DNA of 64,000 bases from Vitreimonas flagellata. Lineage in GTDB: Bacteria; Pseudomonadota; Alphaproteobacteria; Caulobacterales; Aquidulcibacteraceae. The DNA lies in assembly GCF_004634425.1 (NCBI RefSeq), contig NZ_SBJL01000003.1, forward strand, positions 1 to 64,000, read 5' to 3'. A program made the translations under genes and the position numbers. The notes under the pieces were generated by a model. The model ran no database searches and had not been told where the DNA came from. It saw only the letters and a program-made list of their open reading frames with translations. Below, piece after piece: positions 3,855 to 10,684 of the stretch; within the stretch, counting starts at the first letter, position 1, and each line of letters starts with the position of its first letter.

Positions 3855-4802
3855 ATGTTGTGGCTGCGGGCGTTGGGCCAGGAGCACCTCGATCTTGCGC
3901 TCAACGCTTCACCGGACATCCGTGCGCGGATCGTGGATCGCCCAGGGCTCTGGATGAACCCCGAACGGCTCGGCGCGCTACTGACCGACGTGCGCACCAT
4001 CGCACGCGCGACACTGCCCGAAGGGGATTTGACCTACGGCGTGCTCGGCGGCGATCCCGCGCGTTTGGCGGCCTCAGTGATCACCGTGCTCTACGACCGC
4101 AACAGCGGCGCACCGATCGCCTTCAACGCGCTCGCTTGGCTGCCGGTGGCGTTACGCGGCCGCCCCGTGGACGTGCTGCATCTCGGCCTGGTCATGGTCG
4201 ACCCAGCGGCGCGCAATCGCGGCATGTCGTGGCTGCTCTATGGCTTCACATGTTTCATTCTTTTTCTGCGCCACGGCGCGCGGCCGGTCTGGGTGTCGAA
4301 CGTGACGCAAGTGCCGGCCGTATTCGGCATGGTCACGGAGAGTTTTGCGTCAGTCTATCCAAGTCCGAACGGCGATAAGCCGAGCTTCGAGCACGTGCTG
4401 CTGGCGCGCCAGATCATGGCCTCGCATCGCCACGCCTTCGGCGTCGGGCCCGATGCGGGCTTCGATGAAAGCCGCTTCGTCATCACCAACGCCTACACTG
4501 GCGGCTCGGACGATTTGAAGAAAACCTTCGAAGACGCGCCGAAGCATCGCAAGGACGCCTTCAACGAAACCTGCGCCCGCGAACTTGATTACAAGCGCGG
4601 CGATGATTTCCTTCAACTCGGCCAAGTCAACATGGCGGCCGCACAAGCCTATGTCTGGGACGTCGTGCCGCGTGAATCGCTGCCAGGCGTGATCCTCAGC
4701 GGCGCATTCTTGGCGCTGCAATCGCTGGTGCTACCGATCCTGCACTGGTTTGATTCAGAGACAGCCTGGGGCTCGCTGCGCCCCGCCAAGGTACGCCCAT
4801 GA
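3855..4802 (+). CDS. GNAT-like acyltransferase, first gene of an uncharacterised five-gene operon
   Basis: The 315-residue soluble protein has a central segment HLGLVMVDPAARNRGMSWLL resembling the GNAT acetyl-CoA-binding signature (a beta strand, then R/QxxGxG/A and a helix). No closer family is recognised. The ATG at 3855 is chosen because GGAGGGCG lies just upstream; an in-frame ATG at 3774 has no ribosome site. The stop overlaps the next gene (ThiF-like) by 4 bp (ATGA), so the two are translationally coupled. Together with the second GNAT-like gene at 6851, it suggests acyl transfer in a small-molecule, peptide or lipid modification pathway. That role is inference. Confidence 0.6.
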   Translation: MLWLRALGQEHLDLALNASPDIRARIVDRPGLWMNPERLGALLTDVRTIARATLPEGDLTYGVLGGDPARLAASVITVLYDRNSGAPIAFNALAWLPVALRGRPVDVLHLGLVMVDPAARNRGMSWLLYGFTCFILFLRHGARPVWVSNVTQVPAVFGMVTESFASVYPSPNGDKPSFEHVLLARQIMASHRHAFGVGPDAGFDESRFVITNAYTGGSDDLKKTFEDAPKHRKDAFNETCARELDYKRGDDFLQLGQVNMAAAQAYVWDVVPRESLPGVILSGAFLALQSLVLPILHWFDSETAWGSLRPAKVRP

Positions 4803-5674
4803 GCGCTTTCACCTACGCAGAAATGACGACGCGCAATATGGGCTTCGTCACGCCGGAGGAGCAGGAGAAGCTCCGCGCCGCGCACGTGTTCATTCCGGGC
4901 GTCGGCGGCATGGGCGGCGCGTGCTTTCTTACGCTGCTGCGCGCGGGCGTCGGCAATTTCACTATCGCCGACATCGACACGTTCGAGATTTCCAATCTCA
5001 ATCGCCAGGTCTTCGCGTTCACCGATACTGACGGCTGTTCCAAAGCCGAAGTCGCAGCAGAAGCAGCCGCGCGCATCAATCCCGAAGCCAAGCTCAAAGT
5101 GCTCGGCGCCGAATGGCTCGATCAGATCGAAGCGCTCGCGTCAGCCCACCCCGTTATCGTCAACGGCACGGACGACGCGCAGGCCGGGGTGCGCATGTAT
5201 CGTGTCGCGCGCGAAAAGCGCGTGACCGTGATCGACGCCTACGCTGCGACGCTGCCGTCTGTGTATGTGGTGCGCCCCGACGATCCGCGCCCCGAAGAGC
5301 GCATGAATTATCCGACGGTTGGTAAGGACTGGCGGGCGATCACCGATGACGATCGCCAAGCTTGCCTGATGAAAGAACTCGAATGGGCGCTGACGCATTC
5401 GAGCACGCACAAATACGTCGATCTCGGCATCGCCGCTGAACTCGCCGCCGGCAAACGCAAGCGGTTCTCGTTCGCGCCGATGGTGATCACGACCGGCAAC
5501 CTCATGGCCTATGAAGCGATCCGCTTGATCCTCGGTCACGAAGGCGGCGCGGATTATCGTGGCTATTTCTTCAACCCACACGCCGCGCGGGTGGAAAAGC
5601 CGTTGCCGTGGCCGCTCTCGACGCTGAAAGGCGCGCTGGTGCGCCAATTCATGGCGAAGATGACGGCGTCTTGA
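4799..5674 (+). CDS. ThiF/MoeB/E1-like adenylyltransferase
   Basis: The 291-residue protein has the full E1-like nucleotide site: GVGGMGG at 34-40 in a Rossmann strand, DID at 58-60, and SNLNRQ at 65-70, whose Asn and Arg bind ATP. Lys82 follows in SKAEVAAE, and an NGTDDAQ loop comes later. E1-like enzymes adenylate the C-terminal carboxylate of a ubiquitin-like or peptide partner. The CxxC zinc pairs of MoeB/ThiF are absent, and I see no ubiquitin-like partner nearby. This points to a divergent branch, such as those paired with nitroreductases in peptide or metabolite modification, rather than thiamine or molybdopterin synthesis. It overlaps its neighbours at both ends (ATGA and TGATG). Confidence 0.82.
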   Translation: MSAFTYAEMTTRNMGFVTPEEQEKLRAAHVFIPGVGGMGGACFLTLLRAGVGNFTIADIDTFEISNLNRQVFAFTDTDGCSKAEVAAEAAARINPEAKLKVLGAEWLDQIEALASAHPVIVNGTDDAQAGVRMYRVAREKRVTVIDAYAATLPSVYVVRPDDPRPEERMNYPTVGKDWRAITDDDRQACLMKELEWALTHSSTHKYVDLGIAAELAAGKRKRFSFAPMVITTGNLMAYEAIRLILGHEGGADYRGYFFNPHAARVEKPLPWPLSTLKGALVRQFMAKMTAS

Positions 5675-6858
5675 TGGAAATTACCGCCGCCAGCATCGCG
5701 CTCAACCTGCTCGCCTTCATCGGCGCCGGCGCTTACGTGCTCGGGCAAACCAATGCGCGCGGCGCATCGCCGGTGGATCAGCGTTTGGGCGCGCTCTTCA
5801 CAGTGCTCATGGCGCTCGTGGGTGTGCGTGCGCTGCGTTGGTGGCTTGAGGTTGAAGCGTTGCGCCGGCTTGAAGAGGCGATTGCCGCGCTGCTGCCGCT
5901 GTTTGCGCTCTTCCTTGCTGAGGGCTTACTGCGCCGTCATGCGCCAGGATGGCTGAAGAAGGCGATCGCGATTGGCGTCGGTGTGTTCATCGTCGCCGCC
6001 ATCCTTCGTCCGGTCAGCATAGCGCCACTCTTCGCTTACGCACTCGGCGCCTTTGTTTCGCTCTCGCTTATCAGCCTCGCGATCTTCCTCGCCGCGCGAG
6101 ATCGCGCGTCACTCTCGGCCGGCGAAAATGGCGCGATCGGCGCGCTGTTCGTTGGCCTTATCATCGCCGTGCCGCTCGGCGCCACGGACTTCCTAGCCGG
6201 CGCCGGGGTCTCGCCCATTCGTGCGGGCGGTCTTGGTTTGCTTGTGTTCATCCTCGCCGTTGCCCGCGTCACCGCGCATGGCGGTGGCGGCTTGAGCGTG
6301 GTGGAGGAGGTGTTCTGGGCCGCACTCGCCGCGGCGCTCGGCTTTGCGGTGTTCGCGTTCGTGTTCGGCGCGCCGCCTTTGCTCGCTGCGCTCACCTGGT
6401 TCGCGCTCATCGCAGCGCTCGTGCTTGTGTTCCGCATCGTGCAATACGTGCGTGAGCTTCGCGAAGCGCGCTCGCGCTCGTCGTTCTGGCGCGCATTCGC
6501 GGAAGCGCCGACGAATGATCTCGAAGCTTTCCTCGATCGCATGCTCGACGCACCCGAACTCCAACGCGCGCATCTGCTCGAAGGCGCAGCACTGGCCGGC
6601 TACGACCATGCCGCGCTCTTGCGCGGCTTCGATCAAGGGCCGGTGCTCAGCATCGCCGAGGCCCGCGCTTGGGGCGCCGGCGCGCTCGAACAATTGGGCG
6701 TGCTGTTCGACGAACAGGAGGCCACGCACGTGATCCTCGTGACGCGCGAGCCGCTGCGGCTTCTGTTCGTCAATCTCCCGCGCGTCGGCGCCGGTCCCGA
6801 TGTCGATCTGCAACTCCAACTCTTGGCCAAGCTTGCCGGGCAGGCCGCCCATGCTTGA
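5674..6858 (+). CDS. Polytopic membrane protein with C-terminal cytosolic domain, function unknown
   Basis: The 394-residue protein starts at the ATG that overlaps the previous stop by one base. Residues 5 to about 265 are a run of eight or so hydrophobic helices, from IALNLLAFIGAGAYVLG to a last helix near LTWFALIAALVLVFRIV. A basic stretch (RELREARSRSS) follows, then a soluble domain of about 120 residues with DLEAFLDRMLDAPE and THVILVTREPLRLLFVNLPR. I do not recognise the family. Its place between an E1-like enzyme and acyltransferase/flavoprotein genes suggests a membrane anchor, transporter or integral-membrane enzyme of the same pathway. The last 8 bp overlap the next gene. Confidence 0.7.
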   Translation: MEITAASIALNLLAFIGAGAYVLGQTNARGASPVDQRLGALFTVLMALVGVRALRWWLEVEALRRLEEAIAALLPLFALFLAEGLLRRHAPGWLKKAIAIGVGVFIVAAILRPVSIAPLFAYALGAFVSLSLISLAIFLAARDRASLSAGENGAIGALFVGLIIAVPLGATDFLAGAGVSPIRAGGLGLLVFILAVARVTAHGGGGLSVVEEVFWAALAAALGFAVFAFVFGAPPLLAALTWFALIAALVLVFRIVQYVRELREARSRSSFWRAFAEAPTNDLEAFLDRMLDAPELQRAHLLEGAALAGYDHAALLRGFDQGPVLSIAEARAWGAGALEQLGVLFDEQEATHVILVTREPLRLLFVNLPRVGAGPDVDLQLQLLAKLAGQAAHA

Positions 6859-7960
6859 GCTGCGCGAAGGCGACAAGCGCGCGTTCTTTGAGGCGCCCTT
6901 CAACGCGTACGGTGCGGGGTCGCCTTACGTCACGCCGATGTGGAGCGACATCGATCGCTATTTCGACGCCACGAAGAACCCGCTCTTCAAGGCCGGGAAT
7001 CCGTTCCGCATTTTCACGACGCATCGCGACGGCCGCGCCATCGGCCGCATCAGTGCGCATATGCACGAGGCGTCCAACACGCGCCACAACACGAACCGCG
7101 CCTATTTCGGTTACTTCGACGTCGCCGACGATGTCGAGGCGGCCACGGCGCTTCTAGGCGCCGCTGAACGCTTTGCTCGCGAGCAGGGCGCCAACGAGAT
7201 CGCCGGCAATTTCAATCTCACCGCCATGCAGCAGCTCGGTGTGACCACCGAAGGCTTCGCCGCACAGCCCTACACCGACATGATCTATGCGCCGCCGCAT
7301 GTGGCGGAACTCTTGAAGCACAATGAATACGAACCGACTTTCCCTGTCGGTACCTGGGAGATCGACCTCACACGCGCCAATCCGGAGGCCCTACTCAATG
7401 AGAAGGCGCGCGCCGCGCTCAACGACCCGGCCTACGAATGGACGAGCATTGATCGTCGCAACTTCGCCGCGCGCCTTGAGGATGCGCGCCATGCGCTGAA
7501 TGACGGCTTCGACAAGAACCCGATGTTCGTGCCGCTCACGCGCGAGGAGTATGAGTTCCATGCCAAGGAGATGATGTGGATTCTCGATCCACGCGTCTCG
7601 TGCTGCGTCCGCGCGAACGGGCAGGCGGCGGGAGTTGTCGTCTGTATCCCTGATCTCAATCCGTTCATGAAAGCCGTGCGCGGCGAGTATGGCTGGAACG
7701 CACCGATCGAGTTTATCAAGCAGCGCCTCAACCGAAAGCGCGCCGTCATCATCTATTATTCGACGGCCAAGGCGCACCAAGGTCGCGGCCTCAACAGTGC
7801 GATGCTCTATCGCGTGCTCACCAATCTCCGCGCCGCGGGATATGAAAAACTCGGCATCACCTGGGTCGCAGACGTAAACGCCGCGAGTTTGCGGCAGGTC
7901 GAAAAGCTAGGCGGCAAGCGCTTGCACCGCCTGCATCTCTTCCGCAAGGCGCTCACATGA
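6851..7960 (+). CDS. Large GNAT-like acyltransferase, second in the operon
   Basis: The 369-residue soluble protein starts at ATG 6851, inside the end of the membrane-protein gene. The C-terminal half contains IIYYSTAKAHQGRGLNSAML, a good match to the GNAT acetyl-CoA signature (Q/RxxGRG/A). It is followed by a strand with GITWVADVNAASLRQVEKLG, the usual NxxA/SxxxxxKxG end of GNAT folds. The N-terminal half (RAIGRISAHMHEASN, GYFDVADDVEAATALLGAAE) looks like a second, degenerate GNAT repeat. Such tandem GNAT proteins act on amines or aminoacyl/peptidyl groups. The real substrate is unknown. It overlaps the nitroreductase-like gene by 4 bp (ATGA). Confidence 0.75.
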   Translation: MLELREGDKRAFFEAPFNAYGAGSPYVTPMWSDIDRYFDATKNPLFKAGNPFRIFTTHRDGRAIGRISAHMHEASNTRHNTNRAYFGYFDVADDVEAATALLGAAERFAREQGANEIAGNFNLTAMQQLGVTTEGFAAQPYTDMIYAPPHVAELLKHNEYEPTFPVGTWEIDLTRANPEALLNEKARAALNDPAYEWTSIDRRNFAARLEDARHALNDGFDKNPMFVPLTREEYEFHAKEMMWILDPRVSCCVRANGQAAGVVVCIPDLNPFMKAVRGEYGWNAPIEFIKQRLNRKRAVIIYYSTAKAHQGRGLNSAMLYRVLTNLRAAGYEKLGITWVADVNAASLRQVEKLGGKRLHRLHLFRKALT

Positions 7961-8952
7961 ACGCCGCCGATATCACCGCACTGATCGAAGCCGCCAATCG
8001 CGCGCCCTCGGTGCACAATATTCAGCCGACGCGTTTCCGCATCGATGACGAGCGCACCATTACTTTACTCGAAGACACAAGCCGTCGACTATTCGTCGGC
8101 GATCCTGAAGGCAAGGACAACCAGAAGAGTCTGGGCGCCGCATTCGAAGGTCTAATGCTCGCGCTCGCCGCGCATGGCTTCGGCGCCGACATCGAAAAAC
8201 TCAGCGGCGCTGGCGCTCTGCGCGAAACCGCGCGCATCCGCATCGCCACTGGCGGCGTCGCGGATGCGCTCGAACCCCTCACGCATACGCGCGCCAGCTA
8301 CCGCGGCGCCTTCGCTCCGCCCACGGAAGCCGATCGCAGCGCACTCGCTCAAATTGCCGAAACTTGCCCGGACTTGCACATCCTCCAAGGCGCTGACGCG
8401 CTCCAGCACGTCGGGCGCGTCTTCGACGATGCGAGCATGGAGGTGCTCCGCGCGCCAGCCTATCGCGCCGAGCTGCTTTCCTGGATGCGACTTTCGCCGA
8501 AGCATCCAGACTACGAGCGCGACGGCCTCAACGCCGCGCATATGGCGCTATCGCCCATCGAGGCATTCGGCGCCGGCTTGGTGCTTGGCCCGAAAGCGTT
8601 CCCCGCGCTCGACTCCATCGGCCTCGCCGAACCGCTGATCTCCGAAAGCGGCAAGGTGGGTAGCGCAGCGGGCGTCGCGCTCTTCCATCGCCCCACCGAC
8701 GAACCAGAGTTTGAAACGGGCCGCCGTTTCTATCGCGTATGGTTGGAGATCGAGCGGGCGGGGCTCGCGCTCTGCCCCATGTCCGTGCTCGCGGATGTGC
8801 CGCACGTCGCGCAGCGCCTGATGCGCGAGAATGGTATCGGCTCTGACCGCAAGCTCGTCACGGCGTTCCGCATCGGCCGCCGTCCGTCCACCTGGAAACA
8901 GCCGCCGCGTACGCGTTTGCCCGTCTCCGAGCTGATTGTCAGAGCAGCTTGA
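7957..8952 (+). CDS. Nitroreductase-fold FMN flavoprotein (Acg/MoeY-C-like)
   Basis: The 331-residue protein begins with LIEAANRAPSVHNIQPTRF, the FMN-binding entry of Acg-like nitroreductases (APSxxNxQPW/R in the family). The family is duplicated and larger than classical nitroreductases, which fits the length. A later RLSPKHPDYERDGLN region and WLEIERAGLALCPMSVLAD match the second half of the fold. Fusions of a ThiF domain with such a nitroreductase domain are known in mycobacteria (Rv1355c/MoeY-type, from memory). This makes the pairing with the E1-like gene at 4799 meaningful. It is the last gene of the operon. Its 3' end overlaps a convergent cytochrome gene by 14 bp. Confidence 0.75.
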   Translation: MNAADITALIEAANRAPSVHNIQPTRFRIDDERTITLLEDTSRRLFVGDPEGKDNQKSLGAAFEGLMLALAAHGFGADIEKLSGAGALRETARIRIATGGVADALEPLTHTRASYRGAFAPPTEADRSALAQIAETCPDLHILQGADALQHVGRVFDDASMEVLRAPAYRAELLSWMRLSPKHPDYERDGLNAAHMALSPIEAFGAGLVLGPKAFPALDSIGLAEPLISESGKVGSAAGVALFHRPTDEPEFETGRRFYRVWLEIERAGLALCPMSVLADVPHVAQRLMRENGIGSDRKLVTAFRIGRRPSTWKQPPRTRLPVSELIVRAA

Positions 8953-10630
8953 GATATTCCAGCAGCGCGCGCCGCTGCGCCACGCTCAGCGCCTCGAACT
9001 CCGACGCGTGTCCTTGGTTCGAAAGCCCGCGCGCGCGCGTGTCGATCAAGCTTGGCGTAGACCAAGGTTGATACCCGCGCGGATAGAGATAATCGCCATT
9101 CGCATCGCGCTCACCGGCAATGCCCATGCGCGAATAGTCCAATCGATGTCCGCCAACCTGAAACCTCGCCGGCCGATCGCCTGGATGCATCAAATGCCAA
9201 AGCGTCGGCACCGAGCCATTGTGCAGATAGGGCGCGCTGAGCCACAAGCCTTCAAGCAGCGGCGCCGCGTACTGCCCAGTCGCGCGTGCGATGATGCGAT
9301 CGCCATAGGCCGATTGCGTTACGGCCTCTGCCGCAGACGCATCGAACACTTGCCAGCGTCCTGGATCGGTATCGTAAGGGCCAATCCAATTCGGAAACGA
9401 CACGAGCGCGGGATTCTCCAAGCTCTCGTCATACGTCCCGTGGCACGAGGCGCAGCTTGCCGCGTAAACGCCGCGACCCTGCGCGGCGAGCCGGGTATCG
9501 ATGCGTCCCGGAAAACGCGGCGCCTGGTAGTCGCGCAGAAACGTGAACACTTCGCGCGCCTCATCAAGATAAGCCGCCGCGCGATCGGGGTGCACGCCCA
9601 TGCTTGGCACAGTGAAGAACGCGGTCACCGTCGCGAGTTCATCGAGATGCACCGTGCTGATGTCTTCGGCACGTATCACCCGGTCCGACGCGCCTGTGCG
9701 CGGGGCGTAGGCCCCATCGTACAATAGCGATGAACGAAAGCCGCGCGCGCCGAGATCGGGTATGGAGGTGAAGCCGCGCGCGTTTTCGTGCGCGTCGTCG
9801 CCCAGCAAGCCCAATTGCATCCGTAAGGCGGCGACGCCATTCGTCAGCCCCGGTGCGCCATTCACGAACGGCAACGCACGATCGCCGCTGGCTTCCAGCG
9901 CATCCATCCGCGCCTGTAGGCGCGGCATCACGAAGCTACGGATCGTGCTGATCTCCGCCTCGGTCGTGTCGGGAAACAGCGTGCGCATGTTTGCGATCAA
10001 GCGCTCTTCATCGCCTCGCACCGCTTTGAACGCCGTATAGATCTCGCGCACATAGAGTTCGAGATCGAGCGATGTGTTCGGTGCGCCGAGCCACGCGACG
10101 TCCGTACGCGGTGCGCCGTTCGCATCAAACGTATGTCCCGCATGGCACGACGAGCAGGAAAGGTTCGCCGCCGTGAGCTCAACGCGCGGCACATCGCGGC
10201 CGACAACACCGAGGGAAAGGCCGTGCGGCGTCTCAAGCGCATGCGTCGGCTGCGCCACGCCTTCCGGCCAATTGCCGATCGTTTCGGGATAGAGGAATCC
10301 AAACCGCGTCATGATCGGTCGAATGCGCGCGGCTGAAAGTTCGCCGCCATTCAACTCGACATCACGCATCACCAAGGCCGTCGCCGCGAGGCGCCACGGC
10401 ACGGCGTGCGTTTCGAGCGTGTCCGTGTTCAGCGCGCCGAAATCGCTCACCGCGAAAATCACCGCGCCGCGTTGTGCGGGTGTCAGCGACGTCATGTCGT
10501 AGGCATCGAGCGCGCTGGCGTGACCTTCGGCGTAACCTCGGAAGAAGTCGCGCATGGCCGTCGAGCAGGCGCCCAGCGCGAAGATCAATCCGATCAGGGC
10601 GAACGCGGCCCAAGGCGTGCGCGAGTGCAT
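8939..10630 (-). CDS. Diheme c-type cytochrome lipoprotein (cytochrome c peroxidase/RoxA-like)
   Basis: The 563-residue protein opens with a lipoprotein signal peptide ending LIFALGAC (Cys22), so it is probably anchored in a membrane facing the periplasm or outside. Two haem c motifs, CSSCH near residue 159 and CASCH near 393, match the diheme cytochrome c peroxidase/RoxA superfamily. YLHNGSVPTLWHLM near the C-terminus is a typical motif of that superfamily. The start at 10630 is favoured by GGAGG six bases upstream; a longer reading from 10657 lacks a ribosome site. The substrate is unknown. It is co-directional with leuB, 54 bp away, but has its own strong ribosome site and may not belong to that operon. 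Confidence 0.8.
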   Translation of the reverse strand: MHSRTPWAAFALIGLIFALGACSTAMRDFFRGYAEGHASALDAYDMTSLTPAQRGAVIFAVSDFGALNTDTLETHAVPWRLAATALVMRDVELNGGELSAARIRPIMTRFGFLYPETIGNWPEGVAQPTHALETPHGLSLGVVGRDVPRVELTAANLSCSSCHAGHTFDANGAPRTDVAWLGAPNTSLDLELYVREIYTAFKAVRGDEERLIANMRTLFPDTTEAEISTIRSFVMPRLQARMDALEASGDRALPFVNGAPGLTNGVAALRMQLGLLGDDAHENARGFTSIPDLGARGFRSSLLYDGAYAPRTGASDRVIRAEDISTVHLDELATVTAFFTVPSMGVHPDRAAAYLDEAREVFTFLRDYQAPRFPGRIDTRLAAQGRGVYAASCASCHGTYDESLENPALVSFPNWIGPYDTDPGRWQVFDASAAEAVTQSAYGDRIIARATGQYAAPLLEGLWLSAPYLHNGSVPTLWHLMHPGDRPARFQVGGHRLDYSRMGIAGERDANGDYLYPRGYQPWSTPSLIDTRARGLSNQGHASEFEALSVAQRRALLEYLKLL

Positions 10631-10684
10631 GTCGGCCTCCTGACCGACAGAAAGCACATCTGGCCGCGTTCGCCTATCTGTTCG

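Follow-up and report, generated by a model that had tools for sequence, protein, structure and literature searches.

Acyl-oxazolones and N-acyl dehydroamino acids, bacterial lipids discovered only recently, have as yet no settled role (PMC12856293). Acyl-oxazolones have been assigned, by biochemical work as described in two reports, to a set of three enzymes, namely an N-acyltransferase, a ThiF homologue and a flavin oxidase (PMC10404671, PMC12856293), and the same trio is described as going with N-acyl dehydrotyrosines (PMC12479983). TyzACB of Mycobacterium tuberculosis makes acyl-tyrazolones: TyzA N-acylates tyrosine or phenylalanine, TyzB, the ThiF protein, carries out an ATP-dependent cyclisation, and TyzC, the flavin oxidase, uses O2 for desaturation (PMC10404671). 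TrzA and TrzS are described as doing likewise for tryptophan, TrzS being the Rv1355c fusion, an oxazolone synthase (PMC12856293). Producers of thalassotalic acid, kyonggic acid and stieleriacine carry an N-acyl amino acid synthase (NAS) gene beside ThiF and nitroreductase genes; Massilia umbonata lacks the ThiF and nitroreductase genes, and its products are only saturated, but none of the three families has been seen to yield an acyl-oxazolone (PMC12479983). Here we compare these systems with an operon at positions 3855-8952 of a stretch of 64,000 nucleotides (the window) of Vitreimonas flagellata, contig NZ_SBJL01000003.1, which holds five consecutive genes, A to E (GNAT-like, E1-like, membrane, tandem GNAT and flavoprotein genes):

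3855-4802, + strand: gene A, candidate GNAT-fold acyltransferase of 315 amino acids, proposed amino-acid N-acyltransferase (predicted fold; anchor family)
4799-5674, + strand: gene B, E1/ThiF-like adenylating enzyme of 291 amino acids, proposed ATP-dependent cyclase (PF00899, 123 bits)
5674-6858, + strand: gene C, integral membrane protein of 394 amino acids, partner of A (predicted structure; co-occurrence with A)
6851-7960, + strand: gene D, tandem GNAT-like protein of 369 amino acids, accessory (PF00583, 44 bits)
7957-8952, + strand: gene E, Acg-type flavin oxidase of the nitroreductase superfamily, 331 amino acids, proposed desaturase (NF047509, NF005901, 2ymv)

Successive genes overlap by 4, 1, 8 and 4 bp (A/B, B/C, C/D and D/E, as read from the DNA and the list of open reading frames), and the initial annotation of the stretch was right to describe five consecutive genes with overlaps of 1-8 bp. 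It saw no link to a known pathway, which does not hold, because the trio of acyltransferase, ThiF homologue and flavin enzyme is the acyl-oxazolone/N-acyl-dehydrotyrosine set, and Rv1355c is described as TrzS (PMC12856293, PMC10404671, PMC12479983). We regard it as more likely than not that the operon encodes a pathway of oxazolone type acting on an N-acyl amino acid, with the undescribed acyltransferase-membrane pair A-C as its core.

In the pathway that we infer by comparison with these systems, A would be kept at the membrane by a hydrophobic tail together with C, its partner, and would transfer an acyl group from acyl carrier protein (acyl-ACP) or acyl-coenzyme A to the amine of an amino acid. 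B would adenylate the free carboxylate with ATP, and attack by the acyl-amide oxygen would close an oxazolone (azlactone) ring. E, with flavin mononucleotide (FMN) and O2, would desaturate the alpha-beta bond; cyclisation by B and desaturation by E may come in either order. The end product would be an acyl-oxazolone or, on hydrolysis, an N-acyl dehydroamino acid. C may anchor A or move the lipid, D may contribute a further modification or acylation, and oxidation of the product beyond the cytoplasm may fall to a haem enzyme encoded next to the operon, F here and a MauG-like one in other lineages.

We favour this oxazolone reading because of the known trio, because the ThiF-nitroreductase models NF005901 and NF011424 each match both B and E, because E matches Acg, and because the B nucleotide site is invariant. 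The co-occurrence and joint loss of B and E, which parallel the saturated products of M. umbonata, and a gene for a lipid-acylation fusion that recurs beside the operon argue in the same direction. The locus co-encodes what an oxazolone pathway would have, a ThiF-superfamily enzyme with an intact nucleotide site and an Acg-like flavin oxidase. Yet the operon is not a plain member of the pathway, because A shows no sequence kinship to the two candidate relatives tested, B and E form clades of their own, and C belongs to no named family.

TyzACB resembles the operon in having three stand-alone enzymes, an N-acyltransferase, a ThiF homologue and a nitroreductase-superfamily oxidase. As described, it differs in that TyzA is similar to FeeM and acyl-homoserine-lactone synthases and active when purified, whereas A is GNAT-like with no detected kinship to the two candidates tested; the operon also adds C, often with D and a haem gene, and E is nearer Acg. 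TrzAS and OxzAB, the latter reportedly the work of De Rond and known to us through later papers, share the same three activities but have their ThiF and oxidase parts fused; in the operon, B and E stand as individual genes, separated by C (and D), in clades apart from the ThiF-linked relatives tested, although NF005901, the Rv1355c family model, matches both. The ThiF-nitroreductase link to Rv1355c that the initial annotation named is therefore borne out. Among the NasY-ThiF-nitroreductase clusters of the stieleriacine, thalassotalic and kyonggic acid producers, those of Thalassotalea and Massilia likewise have tightly packed or overlapping genes, and where ThiF and nitroreductase are missing the product is saturated, which is what loci with only A and C would predict; NasY is named there as an N-acyl amino acid synthase, and the available account mentions no C-like protein (PMC12479983).

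Gene B matches the ThiF family (PF00899), with the motifs GVGGMGG and SNLNRQ of its nucleotide site intact; its three cysteines are isolated and form no CxxC pair, in agreement with the annotation of an intact site without the zinc cysteines of MoeB and ThiF. R12, the GxGGMGG loop, D58, D60, N68-R69-Q70, K82 and D125 are invariant in all 49 full-length B open reading frames, a count that omits two partial frames from the split B of L027. In the alignment, D125 falls on the aspartate in the CTDN stretch of Escherichia coli MoeB, which we take to be an ATP-site residue. TrzS is described as requiring an ATP-site aspartate (PMC12856293), to which D125 may correspond. In a tree of 26 ThiF-superfamily proteins, the 15 B proteins group together as a clade (99/99) that excludes MoeB, ThiF and seven ThiF proteins found with the PRK14851 model (98/99), with long branches flagged; all five of these seven that were scanned exceed the PRK08223 cut-off (336-455 bits). 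Judged from this tree, B is an E1-like enzyme of its own clade, outside MoeB/ThiF, as first annotated. A role in thiamine or molybdopterin activation, like that of ThiF or MoeB, would suit the membership of B in the ThiF superfamily. We rejected it as scarcely credible, because another ThiF-family gene of the host genome (243 bits) groups with E. coli MoeB and ThiF and not with B, which stands in a separate clade without CxxC pairs. A defence system was also rejected: of the five proteins, only B has PADLOC matches (E1-E2 models, at most 42 bits) among the 25 of 30 matches listed.

Relatives of B in the PDB, among them MccB, PaaA and ubiquitin E1, bring in another possibility, an intermolecular ligation of E1 type. 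B would pass the adenylated carboxylate of the A product to an amine, a thiol or a lipid head group, and E would reduce or desaturate the conjugate, giving an amide- or ester-linked envelope lipid. E1-like enzymes form amides and thioesters, and both C and the recurrent lipid-acylation neighbour suit envelope lipids. We nevertheless consider such a ligation unlikely: no gene for a carrier protein or an acceptor was seen among the five overlapping genes, and the joint loss of B and E mirrors the loss of cyclase and desaturase described in Massilia (PMC12479983). Far less probable is a ribosomal peptide pathway, comparable to azole synthesis by an E1-like enzyme and a dehydrogenase. Pairs of E1-like and flavin enzymes occur in such pathways, as the initial annotation stated (see also PMC12250964), but none of the five operon proteins matches a YcaO model in the Pfam scan, as the initial annotation had noted, although no search aimed at small peptides was made; furthermore, the genes overlap and E is of Acg type.

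Gene E matches the Pfam family Nitroreductase (34 bits) and, over nearly its full length, the Acg/Rv3131 family (structure 2ymv, 4.9e-19); its score with the Acg FMN oxidoreductase model NF047509 is 161 bits, below the curated cut-off of 199, and with NF005901 it is 68 bits. The reaction of Acg is itself described as uncharacterised, with no ThiF link stated in the available description. In a tree of 44 oxidases, the 24 E proteins form a single clade (100/99). If the oxazolone reading is right, the Acg oxidase family would gain a ThiF-linked relative. An oxidase from the same searches (L128), whose flank contains no ThiF match, also groups with Acg, and the V. flagellata genome has a second flavin oxidase above the Acg-family cut-off (240 bits; L141, G000:C1:1300979-1301953).

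The distribution of the families was studied in loci anchored on A, whose presence in them is by choice of anchor. Searching the genome collection with a profile of A (alignment A2) gave 187 relatives, and the best 80 of them were retained; adding the window's own locus and six further ones, and excluding three duplicate copies, brought the set to 87 non-duplicate loci. Their family content is ABCDE in 29 (including L070, whose E is truncated by the contig end), ABCE in 17, ABC in 2, AC in 36, and ACE, ACDE and A alone in one each. The ACDE locus (L047) has D and E as fragments only, and in the A-alone locus (L025) A itself is broken. The loci are mostly from Alphaproteobacteria, with exceptions that include one Lysobacter (L043) and one Gemmatimonadales contig (L104), where the order is rearranged to D-E-A-B-C. 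The full set in 29 of the 87 loci, including the rearranged one, takes the grouping beyond chance; the five genes are a genuine conserved bacterial operon, and their homologues are not scattered singly. Its distribution is rare and patchy: B was found in 5 of 120 genomes of the host order and, in a survey of 398 genomes of the phylum, in 3 (E-value 1e-40), with A in 8 (E-value 1e-5), the window's own genome being counted both times. In a plasmid search for named ThiF-nitroreductase fusions, most of the records were copies of the operon from rhizobia (10 of the 14 for B), and no OxzB or TrzS reference was among them; it also gave four ThiF matches on Riemerella plasmids. Among the open-licence papers listed in searches on the operon in Alphaproteobacteria and on acyl-oxazolones, none describes it in its title or abstract. 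Hosts include the culturable Octadecabacter, Bosea, Mesorhizobium and Bradyrhizobium; an operon of oxazolone logic with an added membrane partner in such bacteria would offer harmless hosts for testing the role of the lipids.

B and E behave as a module. E is present in 46 of the 48 loci with B; of the other two, one contig ends within C (L089) and one has room for E yet lacks it (L046). Among the 39 loci without B, E occurs only in L102 and as a fragment in L047, and two contigs (L041, L088) end too soon downstream to judge. Whole-genome searches of 20 B-negative genomes located a B orthologue away from the A-C locus in one (G512, with locus L075; 1.6e-118), where an E orthologue lies some 1.1 kb away from that B; other B matches reached at most 81 bits. 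E orthologues above 200 bits occurred in G512, in G518 (L102) and partially in G519 (L047); weaker flavin oxidases scored 104-119 bits in five genomes and 65 bits, for one, in G512. In a tree of 86 A proteins (L025 omitted), presence of B changes eight times, at least seven of them by well-supported branches, and the deepest branches carry B, under a midpoint root and with some branches long. Together these features make repeated loss of B the simplest reading, in which A-C would persist alone after losing B, usually together with E. Natural strains with only A and C, such as Yoonia tamlensis (L066), would be ready controls for the contribution of B and E. A decaying operon copy is seen in Mesorhizobium sp. 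ES1-1 (L047:10248-10855), with A and C kept, B absent, and D and E in fragments.

The core pair itself consists of a putative acyltransferase and a membrane protein. The AlphaFold2 model of A, built from a 40-row alignment (mean predicted local distance difference test score, pLDDT, 87), has a hydrophobic C-terminal helix at residues 273-299, and its best Foldseek matches are NatD and other acetyltransferases, with E-values down to 4.5e-06. Pfam assigns no family to the window's A and NCBIfam gives one stray match at 0.024; weak Pfam GNAT matches occur in 8 and 6 of the 40 members. A GNAT-like stretch, R-x-x-G-x-S, has S125 invariant across the 40 rows, R120 in more than 90% and G123 as the majority residue. 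A is thus probably GNAT-like by predicted fold, with modest scores. We take A as the acyltransferase because it is the sole GNAT-like gene in every A-anchored locus, whereas 17 ABCE operons lack D, and propose that it is an amino-acid N-acyltransferase. D, which matches Acetyltransf_1 over two stretches, is present in 30 of the 87 loci; a direct comparison detected no kinship between A and D.

C accompanies A in 86 of the 87 loci and is a nine-helix membrane protein without a named family. Its AlphaFold2 model (37-row alignment, mean pLDDT 92.6) has nine long helices and a C-terminal alpha/beta domain. Nothing exceeded the Pfam cut-off, no fold match in the PDB was better than an E-value of 0.2, and no family was matched by more than 5 of the 37 members; weak matches to 7TMR-DISM (2 of 37), FraD (5 of 37) and families matched by single members, such as TnaB, were set aside. 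It is conceivable, though we hold it only tentatively, that A-C is an undescribed membrane N-acyltransferase system, made of a new GNAT family and a near-constant nine-helix partner and widespread in Alphaproteobacteria, to which an oxazolone module was added by recruiting a ThiF clade and an Acg-like oxidase that differ from their counterparts in OxzB/TyzBC-like systems, while a di-haem enzyme would complete the lipid beyond the cytoplasm. The 36 loci (of 87) that carry A-C but none of B, D and E, the hydrophobic helix of A, the nine helices of C and the neighbouring genes for lipid acylation and haem oxidation would also suit an envelope lipid modification centred on A-C, namely acylation of an aminolipid or another envelope amine, with B, D and E adding unrelated stress-linked modifications. 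This we judge rather improbable, because it leaves unexplained the joint gain and loss of B and E and the match to the known trio.

Several results weigh against the oxazolone reading. TyzACB and TrzAS, as described, need neither C nor D, and the available accounts of the pathway show no counterpart of C; the comparison with OxzAB, TyzACB and TrzAS was made by description and family models. B scores 118.7 bits with the PRK08223 model (NF006077), below its curated cut-off of 266. The E clade sides with Acg and not with four oxidases that adjoin a ThiF gene in reference loci (L113, L125-L127; 95/88, with a long-branch warning), so that ThiF and oxidase may have been brought together independently in this operon, or their pairing may have split off early. 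E occurs without B in L102, and B without E in L046. For A, the GNAT fold matches have query template modelling (TM) scores of at most 0.34 among the best 50 of 1035, and FeeM and LuxI are not among these 50. Single-sequence comparisons with hhalign, run without a positive control, gave probabilities below 1% for A against one NAS-like gene and against one exosortase-associated acyltransferase. A as a relative of FeeM or LuxI is unsupported by these two stand-in comparisons and by the best 50 fold matches, FeeM itself not being compared. The NAS-like assignment concerns a gene of 220 amino acids upstream of the ThiF gene in L114; the PRK14852 model matches this gene with its N-terminal region (45 bits) and ThiF with a later one, and the gene is probably NAS-like on that basis. 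In L119, a few kb separate a PRK08223-type ThiF gene and the gene for a PEP-CTERM/exosortase-associated acyltransferase (TIGR03694, 234 bits; 1748-2524 and 6382-7254).

Recurrent neighbours of the operon point to envelope acyl chemistry. Two genes concern us here:

8939-10657, - strand: gene F, RoxA-like cytochrome with two CxxCH motifs, probable associated gene (PF21419, 66 bits)
L033:13171-16824, - strand: MFS-PlsC-AMP-ligase fusion gene (domains scanned in L033 only)

The N-terminus of F looks lipoprotein-like by eye. In 17 of the 87 loci, including Lysobacter, a RoxA-like gene is arranged tail-to-tail with the operon (-13 to +10 bp); it was missed in the initial five-gene outline. All 17 have B and E (ABCDE or ABCE), and the gene is absent from all 36 A-C-only loci. 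A MauG-like di-haem gene occupies the same convergent place in five loci (-3 to +18 bp; for example L056:11956-13521, Rhodobacteraceae); in eight more it sits at a distance of some 1.2 kb downstream, again on that side, and weaker homologues are found several kb upstream in eight others. The MFS, PlsC-type acyltransferase and AMP-ligase fusion adjoins the operon (at most 66 bp) in 12 loci, convergent and 22-66 bp downstream in ten, whereas in two Bosea (L095, L098) it directly precedes A in the same orientation. This architecture is presumably LplT-Aas-like and makes acyl-ACP. These frequencies, counted at A-anchored loci, are lower bounds, some loci having little downstream sequence. The initial annotation had envisaged an amide- or thio-adduct pathway acting on a lipid, peptide or small molecule at the membrane; acyl or lipid chemistry at the membrane appears likely, whereas a thio-adduct is not needed.

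Other neighbours differ between loci. In Y. tamlensis, a glycerate-kinase-like gene (DUF4147/MOFRL; L066:10146-11333) follows A-C and overlaps C, and homologues follow in 18 other loci; judged by eye from the translations, xylulokinase- and xylose isomerase-like genes often precede in such loci. In the window, a tRNA-Met gene lies on the opposite strand 190 bp upstream of the operon, and a gene pair at 477-2073 resembles HipB/HipA, a helix-turn-helix regulator and a HipA-like kinase, by eye from the translation.

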